This document shows positions 19,402 to 22,440 of a DNA stretch of 33,049 nt, one piece after another. Origin of the DNA: Breznakibacter sp. (GTDB lineage Bacteria; Bacteroidota; Bacteroidia; Bacteroidales; Marinilabiliaceae); assembly GCA_018055415.1 (NCBI GenBank), contig JAGPHP010000010.1:1-33049 (forward strand), written 5' to 3'. The notes under the pieces are model-generated. The model ran no database searches. It had not been told where the DNA came from and worked only from the letters and a program-made list of their open reading frames with translations. A program made the translations under genes and the position numbers. The first letter of the stretch is position 1; every line of letters starts with the position of its first letter.

Positions 19402-20139
19402 ATGGGTCAGTTAATATCTACATTAAAAGAACGGTGTAACTTGAGTTATACATGCATTCGTGTGTGTCCAGCTAAGGCTATAAAAATTGAGGAAAATCAT
19501 TCGCACATTATCTCTTCAAGATGTATTGGTTGTGGGAGATGTGTAACAATGTGTGCGCAAGATGCGATTGTCTTTAGGAGTGAAAGAGATAAGTTACATC
19601 AAATCTTGGAAAGTCATCAAGGAACTGTTATAGCCATTTGTGATCCAACCATTGCTGCTGAGTTTAGTGATATTACCGATTCGCGCAAGTTTGTGGCAAT
19701 GGTTAAAGCTTTGGGATTTGATCGTGTAGTTGACCTCTCATTTGGCGTCGATGTTGTGGGAATAAAGTATCGGAAGTTGCTTGATAACTTTCAGGGAAAG
19801 TATTACATCTCATCAAACTGCCCACCTGTTGTAAGTCATGTCGAAAAATATCATCCTGATATAGTTGAGAATCTGGTACCTATTGTTCCACCATATATTG
19901 CAATGGCTAAAGTGTCGCGTCAACACTACGGATTTGACGCTAAATGTGTATTGATAACACCCTGCGTTGCCTCAAAAGATGATGTTCATCTCTTTTCAAA
20001 GAGTGATGGACAAATTGATGCCACAATATCGTTTGTTGGTTGCGAGAGATATTTAAAGAGAAAAATATTAGCGAAACAAACGTGGAGTTTAGTGAATTTG
20101 ATCCTCCTGTTGGGAAAAAGGGTGGATTGTATCCTGTAA
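19402..20139 (+). pseudogene. PAS-hydrogenase sensor (HydS-like), N-terminal part, frameshifted
   Basis: This is the 5' part of a ferredoxin/[FeFe]-hydrogenase-like sensor gene broken by a frameshift near 20038; the rest continues at 20040-21260. Residues 1-60 are a two-cluster ferredoxin domain. The second cluster motif is intact (CIGCGRCVTMC), but the first reads CNLSYTCIRVCP, where family members have CxxCxxCxxxCP, so Ser15 (AGT) replaces a cluster cysteine (TGT). The hydrogenase-like domain keeps H-cluster ligands Cys140 (SSNCP) and Cys188 (TPCVASKDD). Asn139 replaces the proton-relay cysteine of catalytic enzymes, and Ser stands at the position three after Cys188 where they have Lys. After codon 212 the frame runs through unrelated sequence to a stop at 20139. 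A sequencing error cannot be excluded. Confidence 0.8.
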
Positions 20140-21260
20140 GTCGTGGGTTTGTACAAGCTGCTGGATTAAATCAGGATCTACTTCATGGACAATTAATTAT
20201 TACAGAAGGTCATACGAATACAATAGAAGCAATATCGCAATTTGAGACTAATAATAGATTATCGCACCATTTAGATGTTTTTTACTGTAAAGGGTGTGTT
20301 TTAGGGCCTGGGACCTCTCCCGGTGGAAAAAAGTTTATTCGAAGAGCGCATGTCATTGATTGGATAAATAAGCGGTTAGAGAGTTTTGATGAGCAAACTT
20401 GGAGTTTAAATATCAAAAAAGCTCTAGAAATAGATTATACACGAAATTTCAAGCCGCATGATAGACGCTTAAAAATACCAACGGAGAAAGAGGTAACACA
20501 GGTACTGTCTGAAATAGGAAAGCCAAATAAGGAGGATCAGATGGGGTGTGGATCGTGTGGATATGCTAACTGTAGAGAGTTTGCTGTGGCATATACCCAA
20601 GGGCTCACAAATTTTGAGATGTGCTACACCTATTCAAATAAGAAACTTCATTCGACCATTAAAGAGCTCCATCAGTCAAATATCGAATTATTAGAGACTA
20701 AAGAGGCACTCCGAGAGAGTGAGGAGCGAGCAAGGCGTGAGGAGCAACTTGCGGTTGAAGCGTCTGAAATGACAACAGCCATGTTGCATAAAATTCGTGC
20801 TGGGGTTGTTATTGTAAATGAAAATTTACAGATAATAGAGGCAAACTTGGCTTTTATTAACATGATAGGCGAGGAGGCACGTGAAATTAATGAGATTATT
20901 CCTGGCCTAAAGGGAGCCGAATTAAAACAGTTAGTTCCATTTCATCGTCCTTTTACAACAGTACTACAAACAGGTGAAGATTTATTAGGAAGAGATACTA
21001 CTTTTGGAGATGTTATCTTGAATGTTTCTGTATTTACCATTAAAAAGCACAATGTTGTTGGGGGTATTATTCGCGATTTAACGGCTCCGGAGGTTCGCAA
21101 GGCCGAAATTATTGAACGTAGTAAGACTGTAATTCAAGATAATCTAGAGACCGTTCAGCAAATTGCCTATCTTTTGGGCGAAAGTGCTGCAAAAACAGAG
21201 AAGATACTTAACTCTATCATTCAAACGCAACGATTAGGTGATCATGATGACGAAAGCTAA
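20040..21260 (+). pseudogene. PAS-hydrogenase sensor (HydS-like), C-terminal part, frameshifted
   Basis: This is the continuation, one frame back, of the hydrogenase-like gene starting at 19402. It opens with LREIF and KKGGLYPVSRGF, the expected next segment of the H-cluster domain, then has YCKGCVLGPGT with both remaining H-cluster cysteines (codons at 20286 and 20295). Next is a PF04060-type FeS domain (GCGSCGYANCREF, then a fourth Cys in NFEMC), a coiled coil (about residues 205-245 of this part), a PAS domain (about 245-345), and a helical end. The layout is that of group C (HydS-type) putative H2-sensing hydrogenases. The apparent TTG start at 20040 is probably not real; if anything is made from here alone, the ATG at 20541 could yield FeS-PAS only. 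The end overlaps the downstream phosphatase gene by about 17 bases. Confidence 0.8.
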
Positions 21261-22440
21261 TTTATCGTTTTATTTAGATATTGATTGTCATCAGGTTAAC
21301 CACGATGAGGAGTTGGTGTGTGGTGATGTGTTTTTAATGAAGCGAGTTAAAGAGGAGGGTCGTACAATCTTGATTCTCTCGGATGGTATGGGAAGTGGCG
21401 TTAAAGCGAATGTTTTAGCAACACTAACTGCCTCAATGGCATACAACTTTACGGTTGGCAATTACGATGTTCAGAAGACAGCCGAGATTATCATGAATAC
21501 TCTTCCTGTCTGTTCGGAACGTGGAGTGAGCTACTCAACATTCACAATCATTGATATTGACGACAATGGAGTTATTAAAATTGTGGAGTATGACAATCCC
21601 CATGTTTTAACCCTTCGTGGAGGTAAGATTCTTGATTTAAGATGGGAGAAATTTGCTCTGGAAGGAGAGAAAAACAGAGGAAAGATTTTGCGTACATGTA
21701 CTTTTCAAGCGGAGGTAGAGGATCGGATGCTGTTTTGGTCTGATGGAATCATGCAATCGGGTATTGGAACGGCCAATCAACCTTATGGTTGGGGGCAGCA
21801 GGGGGTTATTGACTTTGTGCTAAGGAGTGTAGGTGCAATTCCTGATATCTCTTCAACTCTTTTGGCGAAGAAAATAGTTAATATGGCCGTCATCAACGAT
21901 GGAGGAAAGCCTAAGGATGATAGTTCGTGTGGTGTGGTTTATTTTAGAGTGCCTCGATCGCTGCTTTTTATTAGCGGTCCACCTTTTACTGAAGATATGG
22001 ACGAGGAGTTTGCCGAAAGAGTTCGTAGATTTAAAGGGAAGCGTATTATTGCTGGAGGCACCACCTCCGAAATTATTGCGCGTGAACTTAATTACAAATT
22101 TAAAAAGGAGATGCTTGTATTGGATGTTAATCAGCCTCCTATTAGTCAGTTAGAGAGTATCGATCTTGTAACAGAGGGCATAATAACACTTGGATATGTT
22201 AGTCAGATTTTGGAGAGCTATAAAAGTGAAACCAAACTTGGTCGTAGTGGTGCCGAGCAAATCGTAAAGCTCTTTTTGGAGAGTGATGAAATTCTGTTTT
22301 TAGTTGGAACCTGTGTGAATCAGGCACATCAGGATCCTAATATGCCCATTGAGTTGGAGATAAGACGCAGTGTGATTAAACGAATTGCTAATTTGCTAGA
22401 GAGTAAATTTTTAAAAGAGGTGTCGCTCGAATTTATTTAG
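21244..22440 (+). CDS. SpoIIE-type PP2C serine/threonine phosphatase
   Basis: The protein is a soluble phosphatase of the SpoIIE/RsbU class, probably the output partner of the upstream PAS-hydrogenase sensor. Metal-binding motifs are visible: VCGDVFLM near residue 25, LSDGMGSGVKAN near residue 48, MLFWSDGI in the middle, and KDDSSCGVVYF. A second domain of about 160 residues (FISGPPFTEDMDEEFAER onward) accompanies this family and is of unknown function. The start is ATG 21244 or 21247; an upstream GTG at 21238 is less likely. The gene overlaps the end of the sensor gene, implying coupling. The coding frame is intact although the sensor is broken. Its stop abuts the stop of the convergent lipoprotein gene with no bases between. 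Confidence 0.85.
   Translation: MMTKANLSFYLDIDCHQVNHDEELVCGDVFLMKRVKEEGRTILILSDGMGSGVKANVLATLTASMAYNFTVGNYDVQKTAEIIMNTLPVCSERGVSYSTFTIIDIDDNGVIKIVEYDNPHVLTLRGGKILDLRWEKFALEGEKNRGKILRTCTFQAEVEDRMLFWSDGIMQSGIGTANQPYGWGQQGVIDFVLRSVGAIPDISSTLLAKKIVNMAVINDGGKPKDDSSCGVVYFRVPRSLLFISGPPFTEDMDEEFAERVRRFKGKRIIAGGTTSEIIARELNYKFKKEMLVLDVNQPPISQLESIDLVTEGIITLGYVSQILESYKSETKLGRSGAEQIVKLFLESDEILFLVGTCVNQAHQDPNMPIELEIRRSVIKRIANLLESKFLKEVSLEFI

Follow-up and report, generated by a model that had tools for sequence, protein, structure and literature searches.

A frame-broken hydS-spoIIE pair in Breznakibacter belongs to a Bacteroidota clade of hydrogenase-like sensors with an altered H-cluster pocket

The window analyzed here is a stretch of 33,049 nucleotides from Breznakibacter sp. 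and represents the entire contig C289 of a 2.65 Mb genome (a MAG of 295 contigs, 88% complete), which its named relatives place in the Marinilabiliaceae (Bacteroidales). Its forward strand carries a gene pair encoding a [FeFe]-hydrogenase-like sensor (HydS) and a SpoIIE-class phosphatase. The sensor, previously read from the sequence alone as a single gene with no mention of a break, is divided between two open reading frames in different frames. In ORF1 (19402..20139, 245 codons), a ferredoxin-like Fe-S domain is followed by the N-terminal half of the H-domain, and the final ~33 codons of this ORF are in a frame that differs from that of relatives. ORF2 (20040..21260) encodes the remainder of the H-domain, an FeS domain, a PAS-like domain and a C-terminal tail. 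The phosphatase gene (21244..22440) is intact, starts at an ATG at 21244 or 21247, and overlaps the stop codon of hydS.

Most of the domain calls in the sequence-only reading were confirmed. Several Fer4 family matches were found in ORF1, where the N-terminal two-cluster ferredoxin domain (19426..19569) has Ser at the second ligand position of cluster 1 (CNLSYTC). The H-domain matched Fe_hyd_lg_C (PF02906) with an E-value of 6e-24, compared with 7.5e-33 for an intact relative. An AlphaFold2 (AF2) model of a relative's HydS, which was poor over residues 231-328 (the second half of the H-domain) and was used for fold class only, gave [FeFe]-hydrogenases as its PDB matches. The four ligand cysteines reported earlier are all present, but they are split between the ORFs and the last pair is spaced CxxC rather than CxxxC. 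Cys140 (C300 in CpI numbering) and Cys188 (C355) lie in ORF1, and C296 and C299 of the joined protein form the L3 pair C-K-G-C (20286..20297) in ORF2. Also as described, Asn139 occupies the position of the CpI relay cysteine C299 next to Cys140 (19816..19821), and Cys188 is followed by V-A-S (19963..19974), which places Ser191 at the position of CpI K358.

Downstream of the H-domain, the predicted PF04060-type FeS domain is represented by an exact Cx2Cx4Cx16C motif (20547..20624), whose four cysteines are invariant across 78 relatives. The claim of a PAS domain was borne out only in part. A PAS-like region (20802..21086) is indicated by the domain search and by the strand and helix pattern in the low-confidence model of a relative, but the PAS_9 match is weak (E 4e-4, 21.1 bits versus the Pfam cut-off of 27). 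The HydS of R. albus likewise shows no PAS family match by score. ORF2 ends with a conserved tail, NLETVQQIAYLLGESAAKTEKIL (21141..21209), a candidate phosphatase-coupling helix. Its pattern, N-L-E-T-V-Q-Q-I-A-x-L-L-G-E-S-A-x-K-T-E, belongs to the best-conserved segments of the clade described below. A related tail ends the H570, Firmicute and other phosphatase-linked (group C3) sensors and is missing in kinase-fused sensors.

The SpoIIE/PP2C-class Ser/Thr phosphatase contains a PP2C catalytic domain (21355..21930; PF07228, E 1.7e-8), in which the motifs DGMGSG, DG and DD(S/T)S are conserved. These include the metal-binding Asp motifs (DG, DG, DD), and the phosphatase motifs are intact. It is distinct from the sporulation protein SpoIIE proper (TIGR02865), against which it scored 25.5 bits versus a cut-off of 490.8. 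A C-terminal domain with a GGTT motif (21940..22437) follows, and its model is confident (pLDDT 85.6) and Rossmann-like, with no significant match when compared with the PDB (best E 0.01). This domain had been regarded as extra to the phosphatase. However, it is present in the R. albus partner and in every other group C partner aligned.

The frame break in hydS lies at 20037..20041 (near 20,038), and protein searches with 83 ORFs from relatives placed the frame switch at 20037-20040. Every comparison made showed the break. A Glu at this site is kept in 78/78 relatives, encoded by GAG or GAA in those whose codons were printed. The window reads GG at this invariant codon, indicating that one base is missing. 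The break separates C140 and C188 from C296 and C299. The hydS frame is intact in nearly all relatives, with one clear exception in a draft genome, that of Geofilum rubicundum (L150), in which HydS and HydA are both split, probably through sequencing error. Neither half of hydS is less conserved than its counterpart in relatives, so the break is either recent or an error, and old decay of the gene was rejected. Comparison of 95.5 kb of the genome with the proteins of relatives revealed one other break, in the NuoE-like gene hydC, which encodes the (2Fe-2S) subunit of HydABC. This gene (L066, contig C106) is one base short at about 290-300, just upstream of hydB and hydA, at a site where relatives have GAKETM. 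Both breaks lie within a Glu codon.

We give about even odds to an assembly or sequencing error, in which case hydS is intact in the living cell. The fragmented and incomplete state of the MAG and the equal conservation of the two hydS halves fit this explanation, as does the fact that the other clearly split HydS comes from a draft genome with a further split gene. However, the rest of the compared 95.5 kb contains no further break, suggesting a low background rate of indels, and the break site is not a homopolymer. The chance that the break is a real and recent loss in this lineage, linked to the disruption of hydC, falls somewhat short of even. The only two breaks in the protein-aligned DNA fall in hydS and hydC, and the window branch is among the longest of the subfamily (0.5 for HydS, 0.63 for SpoIIE). 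There is also a laboratory precedent in Thermoanaerobacterium thermosaccharolyticum, where a strain deleted for hfsB, which encodes the HydS relative, went on to lose one base of hydC spontaneously (PMC11837493, Table 2). This parallel is notable but post hoc, and the hydC contig was chosen because it carries a hydrogenase gene. Moreover, the conserved halves and the intact spoIIE would require a very recent loss, and the comparison covered a single assembled genome of the lineage. Programmed -1 frameshifting at TTTAAAG (20052..20058), a heptamer in the correct slippery phase that would give a product of normal length, was rejected as very improbable and the heptamer as probably coincidental, because relatives use one frame, the heptamer corresponds to Phe-Lys-Glu codons that are not conserved as a signal, the downstream RNA structure is no greater than in shuffled sequences (z 0.16), and the product would alter the conserved ELREIF segment.

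The pairing of the two genes is conserved. SpoIIE is the next gene after HydS in 74 of the 77 relatives with enough flanking sequence, typically overlapping or abutting it, and the same adjacency occurs in R. albus 7 and Monoglobus; the expected adjacency therefore holds, and non-adjacent homologues were not seen as a rule. As had been anticipated, the genome also encodes HydE, HydF, HydG and a canonical HydA, which together with the adjacency upholds the assignment to sensor-phosphatase pairs of the group C type. Among Marinilabiliaceae, HydG was found in 43 of the 45 genomes with a HydS of this clade and in 4 of the 26 genomes without it (Fisher p 3e-12), and the two HydS-bearing genomes without HydG are only 81-86% complete. 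Absence of maturation genes had been put forward as evidence against an H2 sensor. Within the family the maturase accompanies HydS, but eight Bacteroidota genomes outside it that carry this HydS (L131, L133, L142, L144, L145, L147, L148, L149) gave no HydE, HydF or HydG at strong E-values and yet carry a HydA with canonical motifs. Missing maturases thus do not refute an H-cluster, and for the same reason we rejected maturase loss as proof that the H-cluster is unneeded. In these eight genomes the maturases may have diverged, the bins may be incomplete or maturation may follow a different route.

In most Marinilabiliaceae, NuoF-HydA, a small (2Fe-2S) protein, HydS, SpoIIE, a DRTGG protein and an RsbW-like ATPase lead a larger cluster, which continues with a 459-aa PF02906 protein, DRTGG, PHP, a second ATPase, NuoE and NuoF. 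In the window genome the block from DRTGG to the ATPase lies on contig C129 and hydCBA on C106, both apart from hydS, and the rpoC-DUF3467-GH3-hydS context is common to one relative, ANBcel2 (L062). The C129 block (L067:8129-11928), which is conserved and adjoins hydrogenase genes, encodes DRTGG, an RsbW-like ATPase, a 459-aa Fe_hyd_lg_C and FeS protein, DRTGG, PHP and a second ATPase. Its ATPases are possible candidates for kinases opposing the phosphatase. Within the window, a Fic/DOC protein with DUF4172 is encoded on the reverse strand close to the contig end (31068-32192).

The window protein falls within a Bacteroidota clade of ~620-aa sensors, represented by 79 sequences. Residues were compared, in CpI numbering, in an alignment to HydA, kinase-fused sensors and C3 sensors. 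The K358 position is Ala or Ser in 79/79 clade members, whereas every group C sensor compared from outside the clade (47/47), R. albus HydS among them, has Lys. In CpI, this lysine contacts a cyanide ligand. The A230 position is Asp in 74/79 members and the S323 position is Pro in 53/79. The C299 relay position is Lys, Asn, His or Val and never Cys in the 79 sequences, and the M353 position is Thr, Ser, Gly or Asn. All four H-cluster ligand cysteines are retained in 77/79 members and the L3 pair is CxxC in 77 of the 79, whereas one ferredoxin ligand Cys is replaced by Ser in 59/79. Two members, L131 and L133, retain the phosphatase although only one of their four H-cluster ligands is left. The CxxC spacing by itself is not diagnostic, because kinase-fused sensors also have it and retain K358, A230 and S323.

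In sensory enzymes, the hydrogen-bonding residues that stabilize the [2Fe] subcluster are conserved, and C299, M353 and M497 vary (PMC10055695). In the Bacteroidota clade, residues around [2Fe] that are stated there to be conserved vary too. Asn139 and Ser191 had together been interpreted as marks of a low-turnover sensor. Loss of the relay cysteine is indeed ordinary for sensors; the Lys-to-Ser change is not a general sensor signature, since the lysine is kept in every other group C sensor compared and lost throughout this clade. Judged from these residues, the change casts doubt on the H2-binding cluster, and the clade may not sense hydrogen itself.

Trees supported the clade as a unit: its 17 members sampled in a careful tree of 40 rows grouped at 100/100, and all 79 fell together in a larger tree. 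In the free tree the clade branched beside the kinase-fused forms (88/71), but grouping with C3 was not rejected (AU p 0.216), so this position is not significant as proof of a partner swap. In Marinifilaceae (L103-L117), tandem pairs were found, in which a canonical HydS570-SpoIIE pair accompanies a 620-type HydS-SpoIIE pair. The phosphatases of both pair types fall into one, weakly supported, Bacteroidota group.

Phosphatase-linked [FeFe]-hydrogenases are classified as group C3 in HydDB (PMC5037454), and HydS and the phosphatase of R. albus were proposed to mediate H2-dependent regulation of adhE and hydA (PMC6776011). In R. albus 7 the locus reads adhE, phosphotransferase, two (2Fe-2S) ferredoxins, HydS, SpoIIE and hydrogenase. 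The window pair shares with these systems the ferredoxin, Fe_hyd_lg_C and FeS motif domains, the tail, and an adjacent SpoIIE with the same C-terminal domain. It differs in the [2Fe]-holding residues: the clade lacks K358, has Asp for A230 and Lys, Asn, His or Val at the relay, replaces SPM/SPL (S323) with PPY-like sequences, uses CxxC instead of CxxxC in L3, and in most members has the Cys-to-Ser change in the ferredoxin. In the window genome hydS also departs from a single intact frame. The kinase-fused sensors of group C1 (L152-L176) are a possible sister group with the same L3 spacing, but they retain K358, A230 and SPM and carry HisKA-HATPase in place of the tail and phosphatase; a domain search of ORF1 and ORF2 found no kinase domain (HisKA/HATPase). 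TmHydS and group D sensory enzymes also have replaced relay Cys and Met residues and a C-terminal FeS motif, and TmHydS has a PAS domain. However, the [2Fe]-stabilizing residues changed in the clade are reported as conserved there, and group D (M2e) has no PAS, whereas in the window protein the FeS domain precedes ~200 residues that include a PAS-like match and the tail. In Thermoanaerobacterium, hfsABCD encodes the sensor HfsB and the serine phosphatase HfsC (PMC5707799, PMC11837493). Here too a PAS-hydrogenase adjoins a serine phosphatase, and genetic evidence indicates regulation of electron flow by HfsB, but this is a Firmicute operon with HfsA and HfsD, whereas the window hydS-spoIIE pair lies apart from the hydABC contigs. 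The locus is therefore a known kind of pair with a distinct and unexpected sensor variant, present as a broken copy in the window genome. The phosphatase pairing was already known; what is new is the Bacteroidota clade with a rebuilt H-cluster pocket, on which an open-literature search found no paper.

We consider it probable (about 0.6) that the pair is a phosphatase-linked cassette of the group C3 kind, belonging to this clade and working by the following route, with the sensor broken here. In intact relatives, the ferredoxin clusters and the modified H-domain, probably holding a cubane site and less certainly a full H-cluster, would sense either H2 or the redox state of the Fe-S/ferredoxin pool, the latter being the likelier input in this clade. 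The signal would pass from the Cx2Cx4Cx16C domain through a long coil and PAS to the conserved tail, which would engage the co-translated SpoIIE phosphatase, and SpoIIE would dephosphorylate a target and so adjust hydrogenase or fermentation genes. In the window genome, the one-base deletion would leave the intact phosphatase uncoupled. From its distribution, we infer that the HydS tail contacts the phosphatase. The signal route to the phosphatase is not established in the cited literature, and a tail common to phosphatase-linked sensors only offers a concrete site at which to probe it.

That the protein is instead an ordinary group C3 H2 sensor, which binds a full H-cluster even though its pocket has changed and whose phosphatase responds to H2 in the way suggested for R. 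albus HydS, seems possible but doubtful. The near-universal ligand cysteines, the consistent presence of HydG alongside this HydS in those Marinilabiliaceae genomes that are more complete and the clustering of HydS with hydABC agree with it, and TmHydS keeps its H-cluster though C299, M353 and M497 vary (PMC10055695). Against it stand the uniform loss of K358, the changes of A230 to Asp and of S323 to Pro or other residues where sensory enzymes are stated to conserve the [2Fe]-stabilizing hydrogen bonds, and the two members that hold the pair without three ligands. We also suggest, tentatively and from sequence comparison, that this clade as a whole, comprising at least 79 Bacteroidota sequences, may be a former H2 sensor without [2Fe]. 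Its cubane and ferredoxin clusters would then switch the phosphatase according to redox state, and its members would stand at different steps of this change, the furthest being the two without three ligands. The H-domain is the sole basis on which group C sensors are annotated as sensing H2. A widespread clade that has the fold and the phosphatase but not the cofactor-holding lysine would make many such annotations unsafe, and would supply a series of natural variants in which to test what residues are required by the H-cluster.

The Marinifilaceae tandem pairs provide a natural comparison of canonical and altered H-cluster pockets inside one genome. A further pocket variant was seen in a HydA paralogue encoded upstream of HydS (L072:2479 and 30 other loci), which reads TSCSPGW instead of TSCCPGW in 31/31 cases, with Ser at an apparent H-cluster ligand position; the HydA of the window genome has TSCCPGW.
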